The translations under genes and the position numbers were made by a program. Positions 10,586 through 28,966 of a stretch of DNA of 61,135 nucleotides are shown piece by piece (position 1 is the stretch's first letter; every line of letters starts with the position of its first letter). The stretch is from Planctomycetaceae bacterium. Its GTDB lineage: Bacteria > Planctomycetota > Planctomycetia > Planctomycetales > Planctomycetaceae. Below the pieces are notes generated by a model. The model saw only the letters and a list, made by a program, of their open reading frames with translations. It ran no database searches and was not told where the DNA came from. The stretch spans positions 1 through 61,135 of the forward strand of contig JAGQQE010000002.1 in NCBI GenBank assembly GCA_020426345.1, read 5' to 3'.

Positions 10586-13500
10586 TCATTTTCGAAAGAC
10601 TTCGTCCTGGTCATTGGCACCGGACTGGATATATGCCAGAAGATCCAGAATCTCGTCGCGGTCGAAAACCATGAGTAGTCCTTCGGGCATTGTTGAACGA
10701 TCGGATGCAAGGATTTCGTCAATATCACTGCGAGCAACAATGGTCTTATGGTCAGGGATAAGCGGATTGGTGACCAGAGTAACGGAGGTGTCGCTGGAGT
10801 CGGTCATCAAGCCTGTCAGAGTACGGCCCTCGTTGGTGACAACAATCCATGTCTGGTGCTGCTTGCTGATCTCAGCAGATGGCTCCAAAACCTGTTGCAG
10901 CAATTTTGCCCCACGGAACCGCTCACGGACCTTGCTGAGATCTGGTCCAAGCGCCGAAGTAATCGAACCTGATAACCCAGAGTCGTCTGAGCCGATGCGA
11001 TGGCATTTAATACAGCCTGCCTGAACGAAAACAGCTTTCCCATTTTCATAAGACCGCGACGTCATCGTTTCTGCAGCATCGCTCAATTCCTGCAGTTGCC
11101 AGTTCCGGACAAACCGACGAACCGGGGCATCCGTTTCTTCGGGCATGGGCTGGTCATCCGGAAGAACAAACAATGTGCCTCGCATCACTCGCGAATGTCC
11201 AGGGTAGGTGCAAATGATTCGATACTCGCCCTGTTCTTCCGGAGCCTCAAAGTAGACGGTATATTGATCCAGCGGATTCAGGATCGGTGAGAAACAGATT
11301 TCTGCCGAATCCTGCGGCACATAGTGAGTTGCAATGGCACGCGGATTACTGGCCAGCATCATCGCCTTTTCCGCAAACGCATCAGCAGAGTCAGCCTTAA
11401 CGATTGCAATGTTATGGGGCATGCTGGGATCAGTGTTGTGAAACGTCAATGCCACACGTCTGCGCGGTGCAATGCGTAGTCGACGGGGTTCATACTGTAG
11501 ACCGGGGATGGCCGAAATCGAAAGTTTGGTTGCCGACTGCACCCATCCAAAATTGGTTCCATATTGATCCTGCGCTGACAGTCTGGGGTCGAGCGCGAAC
11601 TTTTCGGCGACTGGAAAATCGGGGTCACGTCGTTTCGCAATCAGTTCGTACCCTTCGAATTCTGTAAACGCTGGACCCAGTTCAAATATGGACGTATAGG
11701 CATCCGGCGTAAACATTTGCCCGTCCGAATTTCGAAGACGCATGTGCAGATGAAACTGCATGACAGGATGAAGCTCAGGAATCTCCAGAAACACAGACTG
11801 CTGATCGGACAGCACGTGTACGGATTTCACCCTCACAAAGTCGTGGGCCTGTCGTCCGGGGTCTTTGACGGAATACTCCGGAGAACCGTACGCAGCACTG
11901 TAGAGATAATTCCATTGCTGACAGAAGACATTGGAAAGCTGAACCGAATCTGCGTCGATCTTATCGCTGAATCGCACCAGAAGGCCGTTGTTTCGCGCTT
12001 CGACGGATGTTGGCAAGACCACGGGGCGACCTGTATAACGAATTCGCTGGAGGCAGCCGTTCTTCTGAGCGTAACTTTGCCAGCCGCTTGTGCCGGCAAC
12101 GTAGATACAACCGTCGTACTGATTGAAGCTCAGTCGACACGCGCCACTTTCAAATTCTCCGGGCATCGGCACGATTCCGCCCTGGTATTTTCCGTTCACA
12201 ACTTCGCGAAGAACAACATAGTAACTGCAGTCGCCAAAGGACGTGCCGATCGTCGCGCCTGAAAGCGGACCCAGGCGACGGTCCTGTGGAAGAAAAGCGA
12301 GTTCACCAGAAGAATTATCAACGCCCCGGGGCAGAAAGCACAGAGGCAAGTCATATCCGTACTTGCCAGTTCCATCGCGAGGTCCATTGAAGCCGTGATA
12401 GCTTCCGTTACGGACTTCAAATATCGCAGAAGCAGGTGTCCAGGTCCCCTCCTGAACGGTCGCGTAGACAACAGATCCGTCTGAAGAAACTCCTATGCCA
12501 TTGGAATTGCGAAGACCGGTAGCAATCGACGCGGGCTTTGTCGAAACCGGATCGTGAAACGCATCTTTCAGCATCGTGACGCCAAAGTTTTGTGCCGCCG
12601 TGAACCAGTATAGATTCCCCATCTGATCCTGCTGCAGCGATGTACAAAAGTCGTGACCAGGCGTTGTGGGGTAGTCGTTGGTCAGGCATTCGTAGAAGTC
12701 CGTTTCCAGATCTCCATTCAAATCATGCAGTCGCGTCACCTGATCTCGACCAAGTACAACGATCTGGTCGTTATGCACGACCAGACCAAGTGGCTGATAG
12801 AACCCGGCGGCAATGCGCTGCCAGTGAATTTCTTTCAGATCATCCCCTGAAGATGTCACCAGCCAGACATCACCAATCAGCGTGGAAACAACGATTCGTC
12901 CATCGCTGAGCGATCCAATCCCACAAAGACGCATGGGTGTCCGAAAAGGATTTTTTTCCCCGAACGGCACCGTCAGCGTGTCGATCGCATATCCGTCGCC
13001 GGCACTTCCGGGGACACCCGTTGTCGTTACGGTCTGTGAGACCCATTGGCCGGCCCCGCCTTTTGCCAGCTCCGCTAATTCCACAACATCCGCTAATTCA
13101 ACGGCGGTCCCTGGCGAAGCAGCGTCAATGATGGGCTCGATGGAAAGCTCCAGTTGCACCAACGTTCCTGAGTCCGGCGTTTCATTGGTCGAACGCGTAA
13201 ATTCGACGACCAGATCGTTGTCTGATGCGACAAGCTGACTGTTAAGACTGTGAGCCTGCGTGACAACCACCATCGAATCGTCCGAAATCCGTGACGAATA
13301 CACGAGTGGACCGGAAGTACCAACCCCGGCTTCCTTCCGTTGCCTTCCCATCACCACATCATTTCTGCAGGTCATCAGTTTCAGATGAACACCTTCGCCC
13401 AAGGTCTGATCGCTCCGGATTGTTCGAATCAGCCTTCCGCCATGGAACGTCATAGCATCCAGCAGGCGAGCAGAACCCACACGATACTGGAATACGACGG

Positions 13501-14071
13501 TCGTTCCATTGCGGAAAAAACCTTCATACCGCGCCTGCGTCTTTTCCGGCAGATGCCAGCCGCTCTGATTCAGACCAATCCACTGTCGGCCCTTCGCCTG
13601 TACTCCGCCAATCACACCAAACCGGCTGACACCCCACTGCACGAAACCGTCCTGCCATGTATCCACAAATGACATTTTTTCCGGATCGAACAGCACCGTG
13701 GTGGAGGAGTCTTTGTCAACATGAACAGCCACTCCTTTTGTCGTCGCTGTCCCAAAATGATTGATCACCTGTCGAACAACATTTCCCGTATCAACGTCGT
13801 TCAGTGTATGGTCAAAATTGACCTCTTCGGGGTTTTGTCCCCAGTGTCCGAATGCTCCGCCATCCAGTCCCGGGAACTGCGGGATCAAATCCGGAATTTG
13901 ATCTGCATCCAGAAGTTGCTCCGCCTGATGAAAGTAAAAGCTCTTCAGGCGATTCTGTGGAAACGGTTTCAATGGCTTCGTCACATCCTGCGCTGACAGG
14001 TCCGCAGAAAACCAAACCAGAATCCCGGAAACAACGGACATCGCACAGCGATGAGTAGCAGGCCAGCCCAT
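10586..14071 (-). CDS. Large DUF6797/cupredoxin/cytochrome c protein
   Basis: A 1161-residue exported protein. After a signal peptide (GILVWFSADLSAQ) comes an N-terminal DUF6797-like part (FPGLDGGAFGHWG). A glucose-sorbosone-dehydrogenase-like propeller region follows (GIGSLSDGRIVVSTLIGDVW, GLVVHNDQIVVLGRDQVTRL). Near residues 800-970 lies a plastocyanin-like domain, MPHNIAI ... ICTYPGHSRVMRG, giving the type I copper set His, Cys, His, Met. Then a c-type haem site AGCIKCHRIG (about 1018), and the planctomycete haem-binding module (GPDLSKV, LLQQVLEPSAEI, GLMTDSSD, SDIDEI). It is likely a periplasmic sugar/alcohol oxidation protein passing electrons via Cu and haem. Start 14071 has GAGG 6 bases upstream; 14104, 14077 and 14041 are alternatives. 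It is divergent from the DUF2235 gene. Confidence 0.8.
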   Translation of the reverse strand: MGWPATHRCAMSVVSGILVWFSADLSAQDVTKPLKPFPQNRLKSFYFHQAEQLLDADQIPDLIPQFPGLDGGAFGHWGQNPEEVNFDHTLNDVDTGNVVRQVINHFGTATTKGVAVHVDKDSSTTVLFDPEKMSFVDTWQDGFVQWGVSRFGVIGGVQAKGRQWIGLNQSGWHLPEKTQARYEGFFRNGTTVVFQYRVGSARLLDAMTFHGGRLIRTIRSDQTLGEGVHLKLMTCRNDVVMGRQRKEAGVGTSGPLVYSSRISDDSMVVVTQAHSLNSQLVASDNDLVVEFTRSTNETPDSGTLVQLELSIEPIIDAASPGTAVELADVVELAELAKGGAGQWVSQTVTTTGVPGSAGDGYAIDTLTVPFGEKNPFRTPMRLCGIGSLSDGRIVVSTLIGDVWLVTSSGDDLKEIHWQRIAAGFYQPLGLVVHNDQIVVLGRDQVTRLHDLNGDLETDFYECLTNDYPTTPGHDFCTSLQQDQMGNLYWFTAAQNFGVTMLKDAFHDPVSTKPASIATGLRNSNGIGVSSDGSVVYATVQEGTWTPASAIFEVRNGSYHGFNGPRDGTGKYGYDLPLCFLPRGVDNSSGELAFLPQDRRLGPLSGATIGTSFGDCSYYVVLREVVNGKYQGGIVPMPGEFESGACRLSFNQYDGCIYVAGTSGWQSYAQKNGCLQRIRYTGRPVVLPTSVEARNNGLLVRFSDKIDADSVQLSNVFCQQWNYLYSAAYGSPEYSVKDPGRQAHDFVRVKSVHVLSDQQSVFLEIPELHPVMQFHLHMRLRNSDGQMFTPDAYTSIFELGPAFTEFEGYELIAKRRDPDFPVAEKFALDPRLSAQDQYGTNFGWVQSATKLSISAIPGLQYEPRRLRIAPRRRVALTFHNTDPSMPHNIAIVKADSADAFAEKAMMLASNPRAIATHYVPQDSAEICFSPILNPLDQYTVYFEAPEEQGEYRIICTYPGHSRVMRGTLFVLPDDQPMPEETDAPVRRFVRNWQLQELSDAAETMTSRSYENGKAVFVQAGCIKCHRIGSDDSGLSGSITSALGPDLSKVRERFRGAKLLQQVLEPSAEISKQHQTWIVVTNEGRTLTGLMTDSSDTSVTLVTNPLIPDHKTIVARSDIDEILASDRSTMPEGLLMVFDRDEILDLLAYIQSGANDQDEVFRK

Positions 14072-14237
14072 TTCCATCCTCAATAATACAAACGCACAGC
14101 ACAAACGATCGTCACATGACGAGTTGCCGCCCGGGCCTGAATCGCGATGTCAACCGTTCCCTGGGGAGCGACTCACTTGACCCCGCACCTAAAGATAGAT
14201 GCAATGGCTGAACTCATCCGCACAAGAAGGGCCAATC

Positions 14238-17156
14238 ATGACAAGCAGCGCTGAGAATACCAACCTTCCAAAAAACAAGTCGATTATTATTTGTTCCGAC
14301 GGAACGGGGAATGTCGGTGGAAACGCAGCTCCCACAAATGTCTGGCGAATCCACAAAGCCGTCAGGAAACTGACAAAGGAGAAAAACGAGCGACAGATAC
14401 TGATCCATCAGGATGGAGTCGGGACCTCCACCTTTCTGCCGCTGGAAGTCATCGGGAAGGCCATCAGTTTTGGAATCACCAGCAATCTGGAACAGCTCTA
14501 CGCTCGATTGATGGAAGTTTACGAACCGGGCGACCGTATCTATATGTTCGGCTTCAGCCGCGGAGCATTCACCATCCGGACTCTGGCGTACATGCTTCAT
14601 GTCTGTGGATTGGCAGATAAGCGAGATCGAGACAGTCGGCAGCTACACACAATTGATCGCATCCGCGAAATCTCAAGAAAAGCAGTCATCGCATACAAGT
14701 GCCGCCACGTTATCGAGTCCGCCGGGCCGGATTCTCCCGCAACAACGGTTGCCGACCAGTTTCGAACAACATTCGGGGTTTCCGCAGACCAATCCGATCT
14801 GGACAAGAGCCACGAAATTGGTCGCGTTCCCATCAGTTTCGTTGGTGTGTGGGACACTGTTGCCGCGGTGGGACTTCCATTCGAAAACCTGACGCAGTGG
14901 CTATTCGGCTTCTGGTGCCGGGTGATCAAAAGGCCCGCCTTTCGCTGGCTGACACTGACGACGCTGAACTTCCATCGGCCACCAAAGACAAGCTGGAAGG
15001 AATGGAAGGATGATGATCTGCATCCAGGTATCCAGAGCGCATTCCACGCCATTTCAATCGATGACGAACGCGAAACGTTTCGACCACTCCTGTGGCTGGA
15101 GTTCAACAGGGACGGCTCACGCAAGAAAAACACGGTGAAACAAGTCTGGTTCCCGGGTGTTCATGCCAACGTTGGAGGCGGTTACGCAAAAGACCAGTTG
15201 GCCCATGTTTCGCTCGTCTGGATGATCAGACATGCCGAAGCCGCCGGTCTTGAATTCGACGAGACCCTCAAGGCAACTTATGAACAGGAGGCCGATCCGC
15301 TCGGCACACTACACGATTCGCGAGCGGGACTTGCCGTCTATTATCGATACCGGCCTCGCGTGATCGAACAATTCGCCAAAGAAGTCGGTATCGACGGAAG
15401 TAGTTACGTTGATGCCAGCGGAAGACAACAGCACAACTTGCCGTTTATTCATCACAGCACGCTGGCTCGCATCGAAAACTTTGGCCTGGATTACGCCCCT
15501 TCCGGAATCCCCGGGCCGAATCAATACGAGGAAGAATCCGAAGCATTCGTGCCCCTGATCAAGCCCCTTGATGTTGGGGAAACAACGAAATCGTTCGGAC
15601 CGGAAATCACCGTCAACGGAGTTCCCGTCGGAGAGATCACTGCCGAGAACTTCACGAAAGCGGCGAGGCAATCGGCTGGCCGTGAAATGCTGAATCCATC
15701 AGAACAACGCTGGAGACAGAACTTCGGTCCGAATAACCGTCCAGGGACGTACAAAGCACTGGAGTCCATCGATCCTCCCGTTGCCGGTTTCGCAGCAACA
15801 CCCCCTTTGTCCGGGTCGCTTCCTGGCGAACCGCCACTTGAGGTGGAGAAACTGGAAAAAGCTGTCAGCAAGTACCGCCAACTGGCGGCTGACTACACAG
15901 CCGGCTACGTCATCATCAGGAGGTCATGTTATTACGCATGGATTGTGCTTTCGATCATCGCCATTGCCATTGGGCTATTTTGGCAGCCGGGGCAAGCCAC
16001 CAACTGTCTCTCATGGGCAATCGATCGTGCCAACCAGTCGCTGTACGGCCTGATTGCGGTCACCGTCGATAGCGCGCGTACTCTTGCCACCTGGCCTGTG
16101 GAAGCTGCCCTGGGGCGAGGGATCGCCCTGGAAATAGTGACGATGCTGTTTTCACCAGTTCCGCTCATCGTACTGACACCCCCGCTGGTTGCGTTTGTGA
16201 TTCTCAGTCTTCGATCCCGGCGACGGGTTCAGTATCCAGCGGAACAGCATACGAGTGCTGCTCTTGCATTATTTGGACGTACGATGGTCATCATGCTTAT
16301 CGCATGGGTCACACGGCCAGCCATCGCTCTCGTCGTGGAATGGATCGCACCAGGTTTTGTCGAACCACTCCTCCATGGCGTCTTCGGATCACCGATTATT
16401 TTCACCTTCTTGTCGGGGGCACTGTACCTGACAAATCGCCTCAACAACCTCTGCTGCGATCGGATTCGTGAATGGAATGTCCTGTCCTGGAGATACTCTC
16501 GCCATGAGAAAGAAGTTCGGCATCCGGATGTGGATAGATTTGATCGCTGGGCTCAGAAGCTTCAGAGAATCATCAGACATCGCCATGGAGTTTTCGGTAA
16601 GGCGAGCGACCTGCTGGGACGGTTCGTGGTGCCAGCGGTCGGGGTTGGCATCCTGGTCGCGGTCTTTTCTTACCCCGTTTGGATTACCATCAAAGACGTG
16701 CTCATTCGCATTCGCCTGCAAAGGCACGACTCTGCGGCAGCCGCGGCAGCCCAAACCGTGACAAGTCCTGCGAATAATCAATCCGGGTCTCCTGAACCAT
16801 TCATCGTCGAAGGCTCAGCTGTTCTGGCAACAGGGATGTACCTTCGCGCTGGTCAGGTCTATGTCGGACGCTTCGAACAACCATCCTGGCAGGACGGTGA
16901 TTATCACGCTGGGAAAGAGGGCGTTGAATACGAGAATCGGGCAATGAAGCTGGCGGGACCACTCCGGCGAATGAGCACCAAATACATGACATTGTGTGGA
17001 TGCATGAATGATCCAACCGCACCCGCATTTCTCATCAGAGACCAACAACCCTTTTCACCACCTTCTGATGGATACTTGTTCCTGTTCGCAAACGACGTTC
17101 CGGGATTTTACTTCAACAATACCGGAGAGTTGAGGGTGACAATTCAGCCCCTTTAG
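14238..17156 (+). CDS. Membrane-anchored DUF2235 hydrolase with LecA-like tail
   Basis: A 972-residue protein. Residues 13-400 are a DUF2235 (T6SS phospholipase effector Tle1-type) alpha/beta-hydrolase: KSIIICSDGTGN at the start, nucleophile MFGFSRGAFTIR (Ser about 106), Asp in FVGVWDTVAAVG (about 204) and His in WFPGVHANVGGGY (about 309). After a linker (about 560-590) come roughly five hydrophobic segments (570-830), then an exported or cytosolic beta-rich domain of about 120 residues. That domain ends LFANDVPGFYFNNTGELRVT, resembling the PA-I galactose-lectin (LecA) family end. Start at 14238 is preferred over 14199 because an AGAAGGG stretch lies a few bases upstream. No T6SS or immunity gene is adjacent, so a membrane lipase or envelope role is more likely than a toxin. 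The lectin likeness is tentative. Confidence 0.8.
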   Translation: MTSSAENTNLPKNKSIIICSDGTGNVGGNAAPTNVWRIHKAVRKLTKEKNERQILIHQDGVGTSTFLPLEVIGKAISFGITSNLEQLYARLMEVYEPGDRIYMFGFSRGAFTIRTLAYMLHVCGLADKRDRDSRQLHTIDRIREISRKAVIAYKCRHVIESAGPDSPATTVADQFRTTFGVSADQSDLDKSHEIGRVPISFVGVWDTVAAVGLPFENLTQWLFGFWCRVIKRPAFRWLTLTTLNFHRPPKTSWKEWKDDDLHPGIQSAFHAISIDDERETFRPLLWLEFNRDGSRKKNTVKQVWFPGVHANVGGGYAKDQLAHVSLVWMIRHAEAAGLEFDETLKATYEQEADPLGTLHDSRAGLAVYYRYRPRVIEQFAKEVGIDGSSYVDASGRQQHNLPFIHHSTLARIENFGLDYAPSGIPGPNQYEEESEAFVPLIKPLDVGETTKSFGPEITVNGVPVGEITAENFTKAARQSAGREMLNPSEQRWRQNFGPNNRPGTYKALESIDPPVAGFAATPPLSGSLPGEPPLEVEKLEKAVSKYRQLAADYTAGYVIIRRSCYYAWIVLSIIAIAIGLFWQPGQATNCLSWAIDRANQSLYGLIAVTVDSARTLATWPVEAALGRGIALEIVTMLFSPVPLIVLTPPLVAFVILSLRSRRRVQYPAEQHTSAALALFGRTMVIMLIAWVTRPAIALVVEWIAPGFVEPLLHGVFGSPIIFTFLSGALYLTNRLNNLCCDRIREWNVLSWRYSRHEKEVRHPDVDRFDRWAQKLQRIIRHRHGVFGKASDLLGRFVVPAVGVGILVAVFSYPVWITIKDVLIRIRLQRHDSAAAAAAQTVTSPANNQSGSPEPFIVEGSAVLATGMYLRAGQVYVGRFEQPSWQDGDYHAGKEGVEYENRAMKLAGPLRRMSTKYMTLCGCMNDPTAPAFLIRDQQPFSPPSDGYLFLFANDVPGFYFNNTGELRVTIQPL

Positions 17157-19423: not shown

Positions 19424-22400
19424 CTACCATGCGACATCTTTTCGAGTATGTAGGCGGTCTGACATTTCTTCGACATTGGGTCGAAGGTGGGTCAGGGCAT
19501 CTATGACGGCGGGAATGACAATCGATGAACCCTCGTAGAAGGCCGAAACCTGTGTCCCCTTCGACGATTCAACCTGAACACATTCCCCGAACTCTGCCTG
19601 AAATCGGGATTTCCACGTGTCCTGAGCAGCACTTTCAGGAATCAGACTGAGCACACGGTGACCTCCGCCGACGTTGCTCAGAACAGGCCTCGCATTCGCC
19701 GGGAAATTCTCGCGAACTGTCGGCATCGACTCTGTGTCATTATCGCCACTGTTAATCTCAGATTCGCGATGCATCATCAGGAAGCTGGAGGCATCCGAAA
19801 GCAGAATTCCCTGAGCTTTGGCCGGCGTCACAGCCTGTGTCAGCAGAGCACCAATTCGAAATTGTCCCGAGGCGGCCAGATACTGATCGAAGGCCGCCAC
19901 GACGGACTCGCTCATTTCCGAATTTGTATTGCCGTTCATCGTCAATCCGCCGGAAATTGTCAGCAGTTGGTCTCGCAGCTTTTCCATTGTGTCGCGGCGT
20001 TGTTTTTCAACAAATTCCCGCAGGCTAACCAGGTGTCCAATGACACATTGGCAAACCGTCTGACACGTCATCAGCATGCAGTACTGCTGGCAGAAATTCT
20101 GGGGAGCCAATTGTGATGTGGTCGTGCTTTCGCTCTCGACCTTTCGCATAAACGTTTCGCAAAGCTCACTGAAAGACTGCTGGATGTCTGTCTTCTGAGA
20201 GGTACAGGCTGCAATCGCTGCCTCAACCCGACTGTAGCAGCTTTCCAGGGTGTAACGGGCATTCCACACCCGATGAGGCTGGTCGACAACTTCGGATAAA
20301 TGTGAGGTGATCTTTTTGTACGACTGCTGCAGTCGAGCGATAAGACCCTGCCGCACCGTTTGGGTGATGCGGGCGACCGAGTCCATTGACTGCGAAGTAC
20401 TGGACGCATCGTGCGTGATAGTTTCCGCGAGCTTCGACGCCAGGTCTGTCAGATCCGATTCCGATCGAATATTTCCGCAAATCCGACGCCAGACATCATT
20501 TGCATAGATTTCAATTCGCTTTGCGATCTCACCTCGCAACAGTGTCGGCATGAACTCAAGGATCTGGCTGTTGGTTAGTGACAGGGACTGAAACAGCTGC
20601 TCCAGTTCGGGCGATCCTTCCCGACCGCAGCCCGAAACATCATGGTGGTCGTCACTTTCCGAGTTCGTTGCCTTTTCAGGACTGTTGCCAAACGCGGCAG
20701 CCCACCGACGAATACACTGATGTGCCAATCGTTCTGAATCGGCACTCGCATCGCGCCAGGTTTCGATATCGATTGCGGAATATCCAATGGTATGCAGTGT
20801 CAGTTCTGAAGCCGCGCTGGCTGAATCGGCATCATCTTCTTTTCGCCATGTTTCGAGAATTGCCCGATGCGGAGACATGGACCATGTCCGGAGATACTCA
20901 GCCACACGTTCCACATGACGGTCATAATCTGCTGTTGTCAGATCGTCGCCCATATGCACAAACCAGGCCGCGTCGAGTGGTCTGGCCACGGTCCCGGATG
21001 CTCGAATATCTGCAGGCAGGTCTGCTCCAGGGAGCCCGTAAAGTTGCAACTCTTTCAGAAAACAAACAGAGTTTGCATCCTGTGCATCCGTATTCCGCCC
21101 CCCGGCACTGGTGCCGTGAAGCAACATGCCAAGGATTCGTGGATTGTGGTGAAGCCCGTTCATCCGCAGGATGCGTCGCAGGAGGAATCCCATATCCAGC
21201 AACATTCCGCTGGAAGTGCCGCCGGCGGTCGAACCAACAAGACAGACGTCAATTGAGTCTTCGTCGAACTGCCAGCCCGTTTGCTCGGAACTCTTCGCAG
21301 CGTTTCCTTCCACGATCAGTTCCCCAATCGCGGCCGTAATTACGTCGCGCACCTTTGACTGATGATCAATCAGCGCAAGACGCCCCAGGGGGCGCATCCC
21401 TTCGACGTTTCCCGAACGGGGAATGTTGAAGAGCCATCTTCGGCTCAACCATGTCAGATGCTCATCGGCGACTTTGCGGTACTGCTGCGTCGAGCGAAGT
21501 GGGATCGCCACTTCCCGGAAAGGCAGATGTTCCTGCTCGCTCAAGCCGTTCTGAATCTGTCGAATAACATCAGAGTCTGAATCAACGACAACAAAGCCAA
21601 CGGTCGAGAGCTGAGTACTACAGAACTGTTCATGCAGTTTCTGATGCAGGCTACTGAGGATCTCTGCTCCCAGGCCACCGACGCCGATGAAGAGTGTGGG
21701 CCGATGACGTATCCCCTGGTCCGGAGCCACCAGTGGAAGTTGTCTGGATGGACGAAGTGGCGTCGACTGAGTCGTGCCTACCAGACCCGGCTCAACCACT
21801 TTGGTCAGGCTGTTATCCTGATCTCTGAGCGGCATTGCGGGCAGTCGATTCGACGGGCCACCTCCCGTCCGGCGTTTTGCCAGTTCATCGACGAACTGTC
21901 GGCAACCGGAAAAGCGACTATTGGCATTCTTGGACAAAGCACGCGCGACAACACTTCGATCACCGTTGCTTAATGATGAGAGATCCGGCTTACTGTGCAG
22001 ATGCTGGGCTGTCAGCTGAGCGGCGGTTCGCCCGTTGAATGGAGGCACACCCGTGAGCATCGTTTGGTAAACGATTGCGAGGCTGTACTGATCACTGCTT
22101 CGCGTCGCGCGGCCTTCAAACAATTCAGGCGGCGCGTACAGCGGTGTGAATCCGCTCACAAGGGATGCTCGCGAGATCGCAACATTCTTCGTGAGACCGA
22201 AATCACCGACTTTGGCATGCGTTCCCTGGATCAGAAGATTCTCTGGCTTGATGTCCAGATGTTGCAGACCGTGGTGCTCGGACATGAAATCCAGGGCATC
22301 CGCCGCATCGCGCAGAAATCCGATCAGTTCATCCCGTGGAATCCCGCGGCCACCAGCCGCGATGATATCGCTGAATCGTTTATCGAGACTACAGTCTGCC

Positions 22401-22726
22401 AGTTCTGTAACGACAATTAACCTTCCACCGATGAGTTCTACTCGTTCGACATTCAGCAGAAACGGATGCCGCAATTCGCGCATCAGGTTCAGAGACTTCA
22501 TTTCGGTTTCGGCCTGCGGCCCGTCCACCTTGCCGAACAGGATCTTGACGGCTTTTGGAAAACCGCCCGGGCCGATGGCTCGCCAGACTTCGCCGTAGCC
22601 GCCAACCCCGATGCAGTCCTGAAGTTCATACCCTGCAATAATGCGCTCACCCGCAGCCAGCGCTGTCCCCGGTTCGCGAGTATCACCTCCAACAACGGCA
22701 GTAGAAACGATCTCCGTGTTCGCCAT
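19424..22726 (-). CDS. Ser/Thr kinase fused to tubulin-like GTPase domain
   Basis: An 1100-residue cytosolic protein. Residues 32-285 are a eukaryotic-type Ser/Thr kinase: glycine loop CIGVGGYGEVW, Lys 61 in FPKAVKIL, catalytic loop GLQHLDIKPENLL (HLD in place of HRD, Asp 158), DFG 175-177 and LYAPPELFEG. After a linker, residues about 341-660 are a Tubulin_2-type domain: TLFIGVGGLGAEIL begins the nucleotide fold and STAGGTSSGM (499-508) is the GGGTGTG-like phosphate loop of tubulin/FtsZ. The rest (about 690-1100) is mostly helical, with an acidic linker and a terminal alpha/beta part. There is no membrane segment. Start 22726 lies 2 bases after the AAA+ gene stop, so translation is likely coupled. 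Phosphorylation probably regulates, or is regulated by, the GTPase polymer; this is inference. Confidence 0.85.
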   Translation of the reverse strand: MANTEIVSTAVVGGDTREPGTALAAGERIIAGYELQDCIGVGGYGEVWRAIGPGGFPKAVKILFGKVDGPQAETEMKSLNLMRELRHPFLLNVERVELIGGRLIVVTELADCSLDKRFSDIIAAGGRGIPRDELIGFLRDAADALDFMSEHHGLQHLDIKPENLLIQGTHAKVGDFGLTKNVAISRASLVSGFTPLYAPPELFEGRATRSSDQYSLAIVYQTMLTGVPPFNGRTAAQLTAQHLHSKPDLSSLSNGDRSVVARALSKNANSRFSGCRQFVDELAKRRTGGGPSNRLPAMPLRDQDNSLTKVVEPGLVGTTQSTPLRPSRQLPLVAPDQGIRHRPTLFIGVGGLGAEILSSLHQKLHEQFCSTQLSTVGFVVVDSDSDVIRQIQNGLSEQEHLPFREVAIPLRSTQQYRKVADEHLTWLSRRWLFNIPRSGNVEGMRPLGRLALIDHQSKVRDVITAAIGELIVEGNAAKSSEQTGWQFDEDSIDVCLVGSTAGGTSSGMLLDMGFLLRRILRMNGLHHNPRILGMLLHGTSAGGRNTDAQDANSVCFLKELQLYGLPGADLPADIRASGTVARPLDAAWFVHMGDDLTTADYDRHVERVAEYLRTWSMSPHRAILETWRKEDDADSASAASELTLHTIGYSAIDIETWRDASADSERLAHQCIRRWAAAFGNSPEKATNSESDDHHDVSGCGREGSPELEQLFQSLSLTNSQILEFMPTLLRGEIAKRIEIYANDVWRRICGNIRSESDLTDLASKLAETITHDASSTSQSMDSVARITQTVRQGLIARLQQSYKKITSHLSEVVDQPHRVWNARYTLESCYSRVEAAIAACTSQKTDIQQSFSELCETFMRKVESESTTTSQLAPQNFCQQYCMLMTCQTVCQCVIGHLVSLREFVEKQRRDTMEKLRDQLLTISGGLTMNGNTNSEMSESVVAAFDQYLAASGQFRIGALLTQAVTPAKAQGILLSDASSFLMMHRESEINSGDNDTESMPTVRENFPANARPVLSNVGGGHRVLSLIPESAAQDTWKSRFQAEFGECVQVESSKGTQVSAFYEGSSIVIPAVIDALTHLRPNVEEMSDRLHTRKDVAW

Positions 22727-22728
22727 TC

Positions 22729-24117
22729 TCAGTTACTCCCAGGCAGAGCTGCATGTTGTGGCAGGTCGCCTCGATCCTGCGTTTCCGGATTGAAATCCCT
22801 GGTTTTTACGCGTGTGAAGAAGCAGCTTGAGACCGCATCAAAGTACTCAGGTAACATCTCGAAGGGATGATCATGGTACGTGCAGTAATTTCGCACCTGA
22901 AGAAGAATGTCTCTGGCATGACATCTTCGAAGTGGTCTGCCCTGATCGCGATAATAAGTCTTCAGAAGGTGGTCGACAGCGTTTCGGTCGTAGCCGCAAC
23001 CCATACGGTCGGCTGCGATCTGAAACAGCAAATGAAACTCTGTTTCATCCGGATCACGAACTTCGATGCGATACGGTATTCGTCGCAGGAAAGCTTCGTC
23101 CACCAGTTCCGATGGATCAAGGTTTGTTGAAAAAATGATCAGCTGTTCGAACGGTACCTGGATTTTCTTGCCAGATGACAGAGTGAGAAAATCGTGACGA
23201 TTCTCCAGCGGGATAATCCACCGATTCAGCAGGTCCGTTGGTGAAATCCTCTGACGTCCGAAGTCGTCGATCAGCAGGCAGCCACAATTGCTTTTCATTT
23301 GCAGCGGCGCTTCACTGATTCGTGTCGCGGGATCGTGGCGGATTTCCAGGTTATCCATGGTCAATTCGCCACCGACGACAACTGTCGGACGGCGCACCCG
23401 AACCCAGCGACGATCATACGGCGCGGTGTCCCCTGTTGGTTCCACAATTTCGTGGTAGGACGGGTCGTAGACAGTAATGATGTCTCGACCATCAATAATC
23501 GAATACGGAATCCAGATTTCCTGGCCGAAACAGCTGGTGACACAGTGGGCCAGCGTGGATTTCCCGTTCCCCGGTGCACCGTACAGAAACAGACCGCTGC
23601 CAGAGTTCACCGCCGGTCCGAGCATATCAATCAAATCTTCGTTGATCGACACGTTATAGAAGGCATCTCGCAATTCCGCCCGACGTATCGGTTCGTCGCA
23701 GATGGCCTGTGCTTCAACAGAGATTACGTAATCGGTAAGTGGCACAGGTGCATGCCCGGTGTAGCCACATTCGGCATAAAAGACCTCGGCCCGTTTCCGG
23801 CCCTCGTCCGTCAAACCATAAATGTAATCGTTCAGGCTTGCGCTGCCGCAGTGGAGAACAAGCCGTCGTGACTTCAGTCGTTCCAGTACACCTTCTGCAA
23901 TGCGGAAGGGTATGCTCGATTCCGTCGCGACCTGTCGACCTGTCATGTTGCCGGTTGAAAGCAGCAGGCGGCAAATCAGTGCTTCCACAAATGGATCGCT
24001 TAAACCCATCTCCTGCAGACTTCGCGGGTCTGTGGGCCAGAAGCTTTCACCCGCCATTAACGCTGACAGCAGGCTGGCGTCTCCGGCGTTTATCTTTGCA
24101 CTACGTGACATTAACAT
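22729..24117 (-). CDS. AAA+ ATPase with winged-helix-like N terminus
   Basis: A 462-residue protein. An N-terminal helical region (about 25-120) contains TGNMTGRQVATESSIPFRIAE and GLTDEGRKRAEVF, the look of a winged helix-turn-helix. The C-terminal AAA+ module has Walker A YGAPGNGKST (179-188), Walker B LLIDDFG (281-287), sensor 1 IIFSTNLDP (327-335) and DEAFLRRIPYR with a candidate arginine finger (345-346), followed by a helical lid. Between Walker A and B there is an extra segment (about 200-275) with VTVYDPSY-like and PTVVVGGELTM stretches. It is cytosolic and the middle gene of the operon with FHA-EAL (42-base gap) and kinase-tubulin (2-base gap). It may remodel the tubulin-like protein or its partners; the exact family is not recognised. 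Confidence 0.85.
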   Translation of the reverse strand: MLMSRSAKINAGDASLLSALMAGESFWPTDPRSLQEMGLSDPFVEALICRLLLSTGNMTGRQVATESSIPFRIAEGVLERLKSRRLVLHCGSASLNDYIYGLTDEGRKRAEVFYAECGYTGHAPVPLTDYVISVEAQAICDEPIRRAELRDAFYNVSINEDLIDMLGPAVNSGSGLFLYGAPGNGKSTLAHCVTSCFGQEIWIPYSIIDGRDIITVYDPSYHEIVEPTGDTAPYDRRWVRVRRPTVVVGGELTMDNLEIRHDPATRISEAPLQMKSNCGCLLIDDFGRQRISPTDLLNRWIIPLENRHDFLTLSSGKKIQVPFEQLIIFSTNLDPSELVDEAFLRRIPYRIEVRDPDETEFHLLFQIAADRMGCGYDRNAVDHLLKTYYRDQGRPLRRCHARDILLQVRNYCTYHDHPFEMLPEYFDAVSSCFFTRVKTRDFNPETQDRGDLPQHAALPGSN

Positions 24118-24159
24118 GGCGTAACCTGTTGCGACGGAATGACGCAGCTTTCAGTAAAA

Positions 24160-25299
24160 CTAGTGCTGTGCCCAGTGTGCAGCCGTGTCGGCCCGACCAA
24201 ACAGATACCCCTGAGCAAGTTCGAAGCCCAGTTCATGACAACAGGCCGCCTCCTCAGTTGTTTCGACGCCTTCTGCGAGCGGGATCACATTCAGGTCCCG
24301 GACGAGCTTCACAAGCGACTGGATCGTGGCGCGTTGCTGTGGTGAAGCGAATGGCAGTCCATTCACAAATTTCACATCGAATTTCAGCACGTCCGGCGGA
24401 ACATCGAAGAGTTCCTTCAATCGAGCCTGCCCCGCACCAAAATCGTCGTATGCCAGCTTCATGCCGAGATCAGAAACAACCGTCCGCAACTGACGGAGAA
24501 AATCAGTGGATGCAACCGCCGCTTCATGAACTTCAATCACGATATCCATCAGCGGAAATTCTTCCCGCATTGTTGTGAGCGAATTGAACAGCTGCGTACT
24601 CTTCAGTTCCGCAGGGTGCGTGTTCAGATAGAACTGAACATCCGGCCCCATTCCCTCTCCGACACGGAGCCCTTCGTGCCGGCAAACAATGCTCAACTCA
24701 ACTTCTGATGTCCGCTGCGCAGCGATGCGAAACATCTTATCCGGCGTTTCCAGACCAATCAGTGTACTGCGTGACAAGACTTCAAAAGCGACACGGGAAT
24801 GGTCGTCCAGGCGAACAATCGGCTGGTAATACGGTTTCAGGCCCGGGCGTTTCAGCAACTTGTCAAATTGCAGCTGTGCCATGGCTTCCGTGGAGACATC
24901 CGCCATCATGGTCGCTTCAGGTATCGCCTCGCTGTCAGCGCTGTTCAGGGTGTACATGACACTGCCGAAATGCAGAACATCGCCGGAACGAAGGCCGGTC
25001 AGGTTTTGAACTCTTCGGCCGTTCAACAGCGTTCCATTCGTGCTGTTCAGATCACGAATAAACAGATCCCGATCGATCACCAGCAGCTCAGCGTGGCGTC
25101 CAGAGACTGTTGGATCAGCAATCGTCAGATGGCAGGAAGAGCTGCGACCGACAAGAAAATTGCTGACCGAAACGGCAACCTTCTGACAGGTTCCATTCTC
25201 TGATACCGAGCTGACAAGCATCCAGGCCGGACTCTGACCAGGCTGTTCCGTACCTTCCGCGGGGTTGATCGACAAAGAATGTTGTGCAGTTGTCGCCAT
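24160..25299 (-). CDS. FHA-EAL protein (phospho-Thr reader plus c-di-GMP hydrolase)
   Basis: A 379-residue cytosolic protein. The FHA domain (about 25-120) has all the phospho-threonine pocket motifs: FLVGRSSSCHLTI, VSGRHAELLV and LNSTNGTLLNG. The EAL domain (about 145-379) retains the catalytic set: FEVLSRS (EVL for EAL), FYLNTHPAEL, IVIEVHEAA, YDDFGAG, VLKFDVKFV, PLAEGVET and LAQGYLFG. Active c-di-GMP phosphodiesterase is therefore plausible. Start is taken at 25299 because AGGA lies about 10 bases upstream; the frame is open to an ATG at 25467, with other ATGs at 25377 and 25323, so the N terminus is uncertain. It is the first gene of the operon, 42 bases before the AAA+ gene. The FHA domain would be expected to bind kinase products; the partner is inferred from context. 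Confidence 0.85.
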   Translation of the reverse strand: MATTAQHSLSINPAEGTEQPGQSPAWMLVSSVSENGTCQKVAVSVSNFLVGRSSSCHLTIADPTVSGRHAELLVIDRDLFIRDLNSTNGTLLNGRRVQNLTGLRSGDVLHFGSVMYTLNSADSEAIPEATMMADVSTEAMAQLQFDKLLKRPGLKPYYQPIVRLDDHSRVAFEVLSRSTLIGLETPDKMFRIAAQRTSEVELSIVCRHEGLRVGEGMGPDVQFYLNTHPAELKSTQLFNSLTTMREEFPLMDIVIEVHEAAVASTDFLRQLRTVVSDLGMKLAYDDFGAGQARLKELFDVPPDVLKFDVKFVNGLPFASPQQRATIQSLVKLVRDLNVIPLAEGVETTEEAACCHELGFELAQGYLFGRADTAAHWAQH

Positions 25300-25690
25300 C
25301 GATGGTTTGTCCTGAATGAACATCTTACGCGTGCCTGTGACCACTTCGGGTGTCCCGTCGATGCATTTGCCAGCCATCGACGGATGTTGCCACAATGCAA
25401 CCAATGAGAAACCGTAGCCCACGTTCCCGGCTTCCCCGCCCAATTTGAGGTAGTGTTTGCCTGACATCCTGGTATGTGGTGACGGTTAAGCCGTTCAGTC
25501 CACTTTTGAGTCGAGTAGCCGCATCATCCGCATGACCGGGCGATGGTCAGAAACGAGTAAGATGCGCGACCCTCGCGTTTCCAGTGTCGCAAGACTGTTC
25601 GCCGCGACGGTGCCCTGCCACGATTCGCTACAACCGTTACACTTCCGCCGGATGTGATCGATGGAAGATTGGTGTGGAGGGAGAACCGAA
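25300..25690. other. Divergent intergenic region
   Basis: This lies between the FHA-EAL operon (minus) and the AddA-like gene (plus). Part of it stays open as an N-terminal extension of the FHA-EAL frame up to 25467. It must hold the promoters for both directions, but I see no clear -35/-10 pair. GGGAG at 25679-25683 is the ribosome site of the downstream gene. Confidence 0.35.
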
Positions 25691-28600
25691 ATGAGCCGTT
25701 TGCTGATTCGCGCGTCTGCAGGAAGCGGAAAGACGTTTCGCCTGTCCGGTCACTTTCTGCGACAGCTGTACGAAGGCAGCCCACCGGAATCGATTCTTGC
25801 CACAACTTTCACACGAAAAGCCGCCGGAGAAATTCTGGGGCGAGTCCTGACCAGACTTTCGGACGCTGCAGAGGATCCGGCAGCAAGTGCAAAGTTGGCC
25901 GAGTTCCTGGAGACTTCGCTGGTTACACAGGAGTCCTCTCAGGCTCTGCTGGCAGAAGTGACCCATAACCTGCATCGCATGCGAGTCTGTACACTCGACA
26001 GCTTTTTTCAACTACTGGCTCGCAGCCTGACACTCGAACTTGGGCTTCCTCCAGGCTGGAGCATTATTGATGAACACGTGGATCAGGATCTGAAACAGCA
26101 GGCCATTGATTCTGTTCTCGCACAACATGTGTCCAAAGATGCGCAGCAATTGATGCAAATGCTGGCAAAGGGCCGGTCCAAAAGAAGTGTGCGGGATTTG
26201 ATTGATGATGCAGTCTCAAAGTTCTACGAGCTGTACCAGTTAACGGACAGGGAAGCGTGGCTGCGCTTCCCAAAACCGCAACGACAGCGCGACGACCTGC
26301 TGCGCGATCATGTCATTCTGATTCGCAGTATGCTGCCGGATCTGGACAAGAGGGTACAGACGTCTGTCACAGGCGACCTCGATCGATTTCAAAACAGGCA
26401 ATGGGATTCTTTTATCACCAGCGGAGTCGCCACGAAAATCGTCGCGGGGCATCCCGTATTCTACAGCAAGCCTTTGCCAGACGGACTGGTGGAAGCCTAT
26501 GAACCGCTCATCAAGGAGGCAAAGGCTCATCTGACAGAACAACTCGCAAGGCAAACATATGCGACGTGGGAGTTGATTTCGCGATTTGACCGCGAATATT
26601 CCCGACTGCGGGCCGAGCACGGAGGAATGCGGTTCAGCGACGTGACGCGAATTCTGGCACGGTCCAGTTCGGCGGCTGATGGAACACGGCTTCAGTTTCG
26701 GCTCGACAGCACAATCCGTCATCTTCTGCTCGATGAGTTTCAGGACACTTCTCCCGATCAGTGGCACATTCTGAAAGACCTCGCACTATCGATCGCAGGA
26801 AAATCCAGGTCGCGAACGCGATCGGACAAGGAGGACCGCGGCAAAGACTCGACAACGTTCTTTTGCGTCGGCGATGGCAAGCAGGCTATTTACGGATGGC
26901 GTGGTGGTGAGGCTGAGATTCTGAACGCCGTGGAAAAATCCATCCCGGAGATCAAAGCAGGTTCACTGAATACCAGTCAGCGATCATCATTGCCTGTCAT
27001 CGAGACTGTCAATCAGCTGTTTCAACACATCAGTCAGCACAAGGACCTTGGCGATTATGAGGAGGCATGCCATGCATGGCAGAAGTTGTTCCCGACGCAT
27101 TCGACGGCAAAGACAACGCTGCCCGGCTACGCAGAACTCCGGACCGGGCCTTTTCTTGACACCAAAGGTGTCGAGGATAAAAAGGGTCCATGGTATCGCT
27201 GGGTAGCATCGCAGATCAGGGATCTTTACGAACAGGCACCAGGTCACGAGATTGGGGTCCTGACGCGCCGAAATGCAACCGTAGCCCGTTTAGTTCACGA
27301 ACTGACATTGCTTGGTGTCCCGGCAAGCGAAGAAGGCGGTACCGCACCGCTCGACAGCCCCGCCGTTCTGGCCATCATGTCGCTCCTTCATCTCTGCAGT
27401 CATCCGGGTTGTCAGATTTCCAGGTTTCATGTTTCCGGTTCACCACTGGGTCAAATCGTAGGTCTGACGGCGTGGGACGACGACAAAATGGCCCTTGAAG
27501 TCGCGCAGGCACTGCGGAACCAGCTGATCGACGACGGATACGGACGGACGCTTCAGAATCTGCTCGACCACATTCGACCGCACTGCAACGCCCGCGACCT
27601 GTTGAGAATGCGTCAGGTGATTGCGGCAGGATGGCAATTCGATGAATCTCCGTCCCTGAACGCGGCAGATTTTGTGCGCCTCCTTGAAACCAGTCGGTTT
27701 TCGCGCTCGGAGCCCGCTCCGGTTCGAGTCATGACTGTCCACCAGAGCAAAGGTCTGGAATTTGACATCGTGGTGCTGCCCGAACTGGATGCCAGACTCT
27801 TCCTTGCTCCAGCGGCCGCCGCTGGAGGAAATGAAGCGGGCGAAGCTCCGGAATATGTATCAATCTGGCGGAACAAGAGCATGCGTGATCTGCTGCCGGA
27901 ACCGATTCAAAAGGCCTTCGAACAAACCACCGCCAGCCACCTATCCGAAACACTTTGCCTCCTTTACGTCGCGATGACACGAGCCGTACATGCATTGCAT
28001 ATGCTGATTGAGCCGTTCAGCAAAAAATTGCCAAAGACATATGCAGGCGTGCTGTTCGCGGGCCTGACCGACGCCGCAAGTGCAGACGGTAATGCGGTCC
28101 TTTATTCGACAGGGAACCCCGATTGGATGTCTCTTCTGCCGACGAAGTCCCTCCGCAAAGTTCATCAGATAAAGCCCGCCTTTCCATCCCGAACAATTGA
28201 ACTGGCCCCTATGTCGGGAGGTCGACGGCGGGGACTCGCGCGACAAACACCTTCGCGACATGATGAAACTCGATTGTTTCTACCTGCCGCGGAGATCGAA
28301 ACCAGTCAGGAATTGCCGCAACACACAACCATCAGCCATGCAGGAGCTGTGGACCCAAGAACCCGAGGGACAGTGATTCATGCGTGGTTTGAATGCATCG
28401 AATGGTTGCCAGACGGAACGATGCCTGACGAACAGCTCCTGCGGAAACGAGCGGCAGAGCTATCGATCCCGGAGCCGGCTGTTGAAAGCCTGCTGGTTGA
28501 ATTCCGCAGCATGCTGAACCGTCCGGTGACACGAGGAGTGATGTCCAGACAGGCAGTGGTGCCGGAGAATCGAGCACAGAAAGCGGTCCCGTTCGGTGGC

Positions 28601-28966
28601 GGAGTCACAAGTCGAGCCTTCGCGCGGTGGGCAGACGAAATCCGTTCCGGGCAAATCCGGATTCACGTATTGCCCGAACGCTCGTTCGTACTGCCAAAGA
28701 ACGGAACGATCATTCAGGGGACAATGGACCGCCTGGTTCTGGCGAGAAAAAACCAAAAAAACGTGGCTGCTGACATTGTCGACTTCAAGACAGATCGCGT
28801 CGTGGGACCTGTTAGAGAGTGGATTTCGGCCAGGACGGAGCACTATGCACCGCAACTGGACATCTATATCCATGCGGTTGAACACTGTTTTCGTGTGCCG
28901 CGAGAGCACATTACTGCTCGCCTTCTTTTGCTGGAAGCAGATGCCGTCGCCGATGTCACCGTCTGA
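25691..28966 (+). CDS. AddA/RecB-like UvrD-family helicase-nuclease
   Basis: A 1091-residue SF1 helicase with a terminal nuclease. The protein opens with the Q/Walker A motif IRASAGSGKTFRL (8-15). Motif Ia is TTFTRKAAGEIL, motif II LLLDEFQDTSPDQW (about 345), motif III CVGDGKQAIYGWRGG, motif V VMTVHQSKGLEFD and motif VI LYVAMTRAVHAL. The C-terminal PD-(D/E)XK nuclease has IIQGTMDRL, then ADIVDFKTDRV (about 1027) and PQLDIYIHAV. This order matches AddA or RecB; no AddB, RecC or RecD lies next to it, so the partner is unlinked. The start at 25691 (GGGAG upstream) is chosen over 25661. It probably processes double-strand breaks for recombination. Confidence 0.85.
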   Translation: MSRLLIRASAGSGKTFRLSGHFLRQLYEGSPPESILATTFTRKAAGEILGRVLTRLSDAAEDPAASAKLAEFLETSLVTQESSQALLAEVTHNLHRMRVCTLDSFFQLLARSLTLELGLPPGWSIIDEHVDQDLKQQAIDSVLAQHVSKDAQQLMQMLAKGRSKRSVRDLIDDAVSKFYELYQLTDREAWLRFPKPQRQRDDLLRDHVILIRSMLPDLDKRVQTSVTGDLDRFQNRQWDSFITSGVATKIVAGHPVFYSKPLPDGLVEAYEPLIKEAKAHLTEQLARQTYATWELISRFDREYSRLRAEHGGMRFSDVTRILARSSSAADGTRLQFRLDSTIRHLLLDEFQDTSPDQWHILKDLALSIAGKSRSRTRSDKEDRGKDSTTFFCVGDGKQAIYGWRGGEAEILNAVEKSIPEIKAGSLNTSQRSSLPVIETVNQLFQHISQHKDLGDYEEACHAWQKLFPTHSTAKTTLPGYAELRTGPFLDTKGVEDKKGPWYRWVASQIRDLYEQAPGHEIGVLTRRNATVARLVHELTLLGVPASEEGGTAPLDSPAVLAIMSLLHLCSHPGCQISRFHVSGSPLGQIVGLTAWDDDKMALEVAQALRNQLIDDGYGRTLQNLLDHIRPHCNARDLLRMRQVIAAGWQFDESPSLNAADFVRLLETSRFSRSEPAPVRVMTVHQSKGLEFDIVVLPELDARLFLAPAAAAGGNEAGEAPEYVSIWRNKSMRDLLPEPIQKAFEQTTASHLSETLCLLYVAMTRAVHALHMLIEPFSKKLPKTYAGVLFAGLTDAASADGNAVLYSTGNPDWMSLLPTKSLRKVHQIKPAFPSRTIELAPMSGGRRRGLARQTPSRHDETRLFLPAAEIETSQELPQHTTISHAGAVDPRTRGTVIHAWFECIEWLPDGTMPDEQLLRKRAAELSIPEPAVESLLVEFRSMLNRPVTRGVMSRQAVVPENRAQKAVPFGGGVTSRAFARWADEIRSGQIRIHVLPERSFVLPKNGTIIQGTMDRLVLARKNQKNVAADIVDFKTDRVVGPVREWISARTEHYAPQLDIYIHAVEHCFRVPREHITARLLLLEADAVADVTV

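Follow-up and report, generated by a model that had tools for sequence, protein, structure and literature searches.

A conserved planctomycete gene module of a kinase-tubulin fusion, an AAA+ ATPase and an FHA-EAL protein

Genes and domains at the locus

The 61,135-nucleotide stretch analyzed here (the window; contig JAGQQE010000002.1, assembly GCA_020426345.1, a Planctomycetaceae bacterium) contains three consecutive genes that encode an FHA-EAL protein, an AAA+ ATPase, and a Ser/Thr kinase-Tubulin_2 fusion (KT). Together they probably form a switch, so far undescribed, that joins an internal tubulin-like structure to cyclic di-GMP (c-di-GMP). An earlier note, made from the letters of the window, had placed the three genes side by side on the minus strand, separated by 42 and 2 bases, and this layout was confirmed (Table 1). 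The true start of the FHA-EAL protein probably lies about 48 to 56 codons inside the listed open reading frame (ATG near 25323 or 25299), because the proteins of relatives begin there. A promoter and terminator scan across the module gave a site count not above that of shuffled sequence, and the operon boundaries are therefore drawn from gene spacing alone.

Table 1. Genes, domains and candidate site of the module (window coordinates), followed by REC-GGDEF-CBS genes at loci of relatives (L numbers)
Feature	Position	Strand	Details
FHA-EAL protein	24160..25467	-	435 aa from listed start; Pfam EAL 5.5e-35, FHA 9e-19
FHA-EAL domain map			FHA about residues 90-175; linker holding T186; EAL 202-425
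Thr186 codon, FHA-EAL linker, candidate phosphosite	24910..24912	-	T in 30/33 family members
AAA+ ATPase, winged-helix-like N-terminal region	22729..24117	-	462 aa; AlphaFold2 model fold and alignment
KT, Ser/Thr kinase-tubulin fusion	19424..22726	-	1100 aa; Pfam Pkinase 1.7e-26, Tubulin_2 9.4e-30
KT kinase domain, residues 33-275	21902..22630	-	G40, K61, E75, HLD158, K160, N163, DFG (D175), E201
KT tubulin-fold N-terminal part, about residues 341-680	20687..21706	-	T1 GVGGLG, T4 STAGGTSSG; Tubulin_2 match 345-575
KT helical/coiled-coil insertion, about residues 681-1018	19673..20686	-	DSSP of model
KT C-terminal strands and helices, about residues 1019-1100, completing tubulin C-terminal domain	19427..19672	-	AlphaFold2 model, CetZ superposition
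REC-GGDEF-CBS gene	L036:10426-11925		
REC-GGDEF-CBS gene	L037:6061-7410		
REC-GGDEF-CBS gene	L038:6343-7695		
REC-GGDEF-CBS gene	L079:1123-2511		
REC-GGDEF-CBS gene	L227:10096-11550		
REC-GGDEF-CBS gene	L228:10850-12322		

Pfam searches agreed with the note that KT is a Ser/Thr kinase fused to a Tubulin_2-type domain; the Tubulin_2 match (PF13809) scored 104.5 bits against a curated cut-off of 27. The kinase catalytic residues (G-loop, VAIK Lys, αC Glu, HxD Asp, Asn, DFG, and APE Glu) were invariant in 31/31 KT proteins, and the catalytic loop is HLD (non-RD) rather than HRD. GTP-binding loops were recognized as GVGGLG (T1) and AGGTSSG (T4), the T4 pattern varying at one or two positions across the family. 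An AlphaFold2 (AF2) model of residues 330 to 1100 (predicted local distance difference test [pLDDT], 79.7; predicted TM-score, 0.70) puts the STAGGTSSG loop inside a tubulin fold, where the note had assigned it. The model matched CetZ (3zid) with a Z of 25.8 over 301 aligned residues and tubulins with a Z of about 22.5. The CetZ match spans model residues 12 to 758, so that the C-terminal strands are included and both tubulin domains are covered. TM-scores from Foldseek were modest (0.24 by query length, 0.50 by target), as expected from the helical insertion of about 340 residues. KT thus shares the whole tubulin fold with CetZ and tubulins (Z of 22 to 26 over about 300 residues) and differs from them in this insertion, in the fused kinase, and in the lack of a conserved acid in the likely T7 loop.

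Fusions of this type have been reported. Makarova and Koonin described four planctomycete kinase-FtsZl1 fusions in 2010, an analysis in which T6-H7 was not confidently placed and no similarity to tubulin C-terminal domains was found (PMC2875224); the KT model suggests that these elements are present. An N-terminal kinase on a tubulin-like protein was mentioned again in 2023 (PMC9871819), and a 2024 paper named the tubulin-like domain as the most frequent partner, within the phylum, of kinases that are purely cytoplasmic (PMC11032199). With the FtsZl1 family KT has in common the Tubulin_2 domain, the GTP-binding glycine loop, and a long helical C-terminal extension (PMC2875224). That family was linked to predicted vWA-GTPase-kinase operons, a frequent association and not a strict definition (PMC2875224), whereas the partners here are AAA+ and FHA-EAL proteins, with GGDEF genes added in some relatives. 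No von Willebrand factor A (vWA) protein or distinct GTPase gene was found among the near neighbors scanned in the window. The genome of the window encodes a second Tubulin_2 protein, of 1044 residues and lacking a kinase domain; its contig is 5.6 kb long (G000:C312, L147:2409-5543).

The AAA+ protein fell below every Pfam cut-off (AAA weakly, at 0.012), and its assignment for this reason rests on fold. The AF2 model (pLDDT 89.5) consists of N-terminal helices, a two-strand hairpin that is winged-helix-like, and an AAA+ core, which bears out the reading of the second gene as an AAA+ ATPase with a winged-helix-like N terminus; Walker A is GAPGNGKS and Walker B is CLLIDDFG. The nearest solved folds were an uncharacterized Pyrococcus AAA+ protein (8p49, Z 17.8), Lon (Z 16), and CbbQ and NorQ (Z about 15). 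As a test of membership in the MoxR group this gave four folds all within about 3 Z units of each other. MoxR-type proteins and Lon share the AAA+ fold with the window protein (Z of about 15 to 16), which differs in having the winged-helix-like N-terminal region.

In the FHA-EAL protein, Pfam and a residue check upheld the claim that an FHA phospho-Thr pocket and the EAL catalytic residues occur in one chain: G107, R108, S122, H125, N144, and N149 of the pocket and E229, N282, E312, D341, D342, K362, E399, and Q419 of the EAL domain are all present. Across the family the pocket (Arg, Ser, His, Asn) is complete in 33/33 proteins and the catalytic set (E, N, E, DD, K, E, Q) in 29/33. The best solved match was the phosphodiesterase RocR (2.2e-20), which has the same catalytic residues. 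The window protein differs from it in having EVL for the EAL motif, GQARL for GYSSL in loop 6, and FHA in place of the REC input domain. Loop 6 reads DFGAGQARL, with Q where the aligned solved EAL proteins carry Y; in the family Q, R, or K replaces the Y of the canonical DFG[T/A]G[Y/F]SSL, a deviation that is not proof of inactivity. A literature search for a named FHA-EAL protein found none. The genome of the window holds a second kinase/FHA-EAL pair (G000:C187, L149:3871-8228), in which the last 4 bases of a large Pkinase-DUF5939 gene are shared with the FHA-EAL gene.

Conservation and co-inheritance of the module

The three genes form a real, conserved module, and their linkage is near certain. 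Protein searches of 59 relatives, with loci inspected around the best matches, found AAA homologs in 54 and showed that the trio recurs across several families of the class; the module occurs here mainly in Pirellulales. Scanning public genomes with the AAA alignment added 80 further loci, among them loci of Rhodopirellula europaea 6C, Rhodopirellula sp. SM50, and Candidatus Laterigemmans baculatus. In a tree of 100 AAA proteins, those of the module fell into one clade of 38 rows (SH-aLRT 100), and a KT gene lay in the same locus in 35 of these 38 rows and in none of the 56 scorable rows outside (Fisher p about 1e-22, a value that takes no account of common descent and therefore overstates independence). 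The conserved co-occurrence across planctomycete genomes for which the earlier note had proposed a search is thus established. A stronger argument than the Fisher value is that gene order and strand changed six times within the clade with the linkage kept. The arrangements seen were FHA-EAL, AAA, and KT in the order of the window; FHA-EAL divergent from AAA and KT; and FHA-EAL downstream.

Pairs of module genes also remained together when the third had moved elsewhere. In the three clade exceptions (G060, G061, and G062), KT is away from AAA and lies 54, 55, and 21 bases, respectively, behind an FHA-EAL-type gene, and in R. europaea FHA-EAL is at another genome position. Tubulin_2 was present in 14/14 genomes with a clade AAA protein and in 7/45 without one (Fisher p, 8.7e-9), and the pairwise distances of the three module proteins were correlated (r of 0.57, 0.67, and 0.83; Mantel 0/2000). 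Within the family of the window the module is patchy (9/37 genomes). The idea that KT is always accompanied by the AAA+ protein was rejected, as the f3 family and one further genome (G039) have KT alone. Two loci, L151:5495-12753 (G053) and L153:5093-11152 (G051), carry two tandem kinase-tubulin fusion genes with no AAA or FHA-EAL gene nearby. AAA paralogs (for example, L044 to L050) make up a closely related family that is found in most planctomycete genomes searched, usually without module partners.

In this group of planctomycetes, cell division and the shaping of the cell proceed without FtsZ. FtsZ was absent from 59/59 genomes searched (control 13/14), and FtsZ_C was absent from the genome of the window. 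Tubulin_2 was found in only 21/59 genomes, so KT is not a general FtsZ replacement.

The linker threonine and the proposed connection to c-di-GMP

The segment between the FHA and EAL domains contains one residue, T186, whose alignment column has an entropy of 0.52 bits, compared with mostly 2.3 to 3.5 bits in neighboring linker columns (33 proteins). An acidic residue is usual at +4, and the equivalent of T186 is kept in versions with a catalytically dead EAL domain (L036 to L038). A conserved Thr within a variable segment of the same chain is the pattern of GarA, OdhI, and DgcB, and T186 has it. By conservation, T186 is the best candidate phosphosite, and FHA may read its own protein and not a separate target; analogy likewise makes the linker Thr a feature pointing to a phospho-switch resembling those three proteins. 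In Bdellovibrio, the FHA-GGDEF protein DgcB is activated once its own FHA domain binds the phosphorylated tail at T14 (PMC6733907). There, as would be the case here, an FHA domain governs a c-di-GMP enzyme, and the candidate ligand is a conserved Thr of the same polypeptide. DgcB differs in having GGDEF where this protein has EAL, in carrying its Thr in an N-terminal tail where the Thr here is C-terminal to FHA, and in that its kinase is unidentified (PMC6733907) whereas here a kinase gene adjoins. The pairs of PknG or PknB with GarA or OdhI likewise combine a Ser/Thr kinase with an FHA protein that has a self-docking phospho-Thr switch; GarA and OdhI are free-standing FHA proteins that inhibit metabolic enzymes, with no EAL or tubulin partner and with the Thr at the N terminus.

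The proposal of the earlier note that the module is tied to c-di-GMP stood in part. For it speak the intact EAL domains and a GGDEF gene found immediately upstream of FHA-EAL, in the same orientation, in L033, L069, and L070 (gaps of 54, 10, and -4 bases), with an intact RYGGDEF motif in L069. The genome of the window encodes 8 GGDEF and 6 EAL domains, and c-di-GMP is therefore expected to be made. Against it, the module is retained in six genomes (G040, G049, G057, G060, G061, and G062) in which EAL is catalytically dead (L036 to L038 and L079 within the 33-protein set, plus L216 and L220); hydrolysis of c-di-GMP is thus a usual and not an obligatory output. The phospho-reading FHA part is the constant of the module, with c-di-GMP enzyme function as its typical companion. 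A REC-GGDEF-CBS gene adjoins the FHA-(dead)EAL gene in 6/6 of these genomes, with a GGDEF signature that is degenerate by eye; no strong match to such a gene was found in intact-EAL loci. At L228 a second REC-GGDEF-CBS gene (12542-14200), with a strong GGDEF match, lies alongside.

A proposed switch and its alternatives

Computation established the domains, the intact active sites, the co-inheritance, the tubulin fold, the conserved Thr, and the GGDEF linkage. From these we tentatively favor a phospho-switch on FHA-EAL, set by the KT kinase, that controls c-di-GMP hydrolysis, with the AAA+ protein as remodeler. KT would act in the cytoplasm, its kinase borne by a full tubulin-type fold that binds GTP and contains a large helical insertion, and it would probably assemble with itself as a filament or scaffold. 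By analogy with DgcB, the mark would likely be T186, written by the kinase encoded alongside and read by FHA: the KT kinase would phosphorylate FHA-EAL, most likely at T186, and the FHA domain of the same or a partner molecule would bind the phospho-Thr, rearrange the EAL dimer, and set local c-di-GMP hydrolysis. In some relatives the GGDEF enzyme of the same run would supply the opposing activity. The AAA+ protein may remodel or disassemble KT assemblies or the KT-FHA complex. In its fullest form the proposal gives FtsZ-less bacteria a tubulin-type filament with its own kinase, local c-di-GMP control through a phospho-reading phosphodiesterase, and an AAA+ remodeler. This would be a direct circuit from cytoskeleton to second messenger, a kind for which no bacterial description was found; it is possible but doubtful.

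If the favored switch is correct, FHA gating, seen for c-di-GMP synthesis in DgcB, would extend to enzymes that degrade c-di-GMP, and a candidate kinase is encoded next door. For the Tubulin_2/FtsZl1 family, whose function has been open since 2010, the module offers definite partners, together with candidates for the phosphosite and the output, which makes that function directly testable. The view of the note that the combination is not a described system holds for the linkage and not for the kinase-Tubulin_2 fusion: no description of FHA-EAL/AAA+/GGDEF linkage was found in the freely available journal papers searched, and a search on tubulin-like proteins with AAA ATPases, vWA proteins, and conflict systems returned nothing on this combination. 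The module is made of known parts and, as far as found, is undescribed as a set.

Several points weigh against the favored switch. No conserved acidic residue was found in the likely T7 loop of KT (616-624, a loop assigned from DSSP order only), and ordinary GTP-hydrolysis cycling or dynamic GTP-driven polymerization is for that reason doubtful; of the note's polymerizing, tubulin-like GTPase, it is the whole tubulin fold that stands. The EAL loop 6 looks unlike that of solved EAL proteins, and the module persists where EAL is dead. The linker Thr is present in most stand-alone FHA-EAL proteins too and is therefore a trait of the FHA-EAL family, not specific to this operon or kinase; it could have a structural role instead. 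The residue at +3 is not one that FHA domains usually prefer. A kinase gene adjoins only 2 of 22 stand-alone FHA-EAL genes; the kinase was accordingly rejected as a general neighbor of FHA-EAL, and the kinase/FHA-EAL pairing is mostly specific to this module. Two other accounts were weighed. EAL might be mainly a protein- or ligand-binding platform (a c-di-GMP receptor, or without ligand), with FHA recruiting it to phosphorylated KT and with assembly or positioning of a tubulin-like scaffold as the output. The FHA pocket is intact throughout while EAL is dead in six module-keeping genomes, whose neighboring REC-GGDEF-CBS proteins also lack a GGDEF signature by eye, and loop 6 deviates even in intact EAL domains; yet a full catalytic set in most of the family is hard to explain without catalysis or substrate binding, and three relatives have a GGDEF gene in the same run, intact in L069. 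We consider this account somewhat unlikely. FHA might otherwise read an autophosphorylated site on KT (the activation loop) or on the AAA+ protein, the linker Thr being structural, for example, a helix cap before EAL. Docking on the activation loop of a kinase is common among FHA domains, and most of the stand-alone proteins that carry the linker Thr have no kinase gene beside them, but a conserved Thr sought as a phosphosite in the kinase-tubulin linker was not found across the family, and the linker Thr of FHA-EAL lies in a segment otherwise variable; we judge such a site improbable.

An anti-phage or conflict system built from the kinase and the AAA+ protein would accord with the patchy presence of the module, and PADLOC models for PD-T4-6 kinases and the IetA ATPase do match. 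These matches are confined to the generic kinase domain and a short stretch of AAA+, with none to EAL, and on that ground a defense system was not adopted. The co-variation of the module proteins, the recurrence of GGDEF genes as extra neighbors, and the absence of a recognized effector within the module (a phospholipase and a helicase-nuclease lie nearby, on the other strand) make it very unlikely. Chance or an ancestral neighborhood without functional link is scarcely credible: all three families also stand alone elsewhere, but the linkage has outlasted several changes of order and strand, pairs stay when the third gene moves, and the tree and linkage counts strongly disfavor it.

The two nearby plus-strand genes encode a 985-residue protein with a type VI secretion Tle1-like phospholipase catalytic domain (window 14199-17156; 2.3e-66) and, divergent from the module, an AddA-like UvrD helicase with a PD-(D/E)XK nuclease (window 25661-28966). 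At L032 a PD-(D/E)XK protein adjoins the kinase-tubulin gene.

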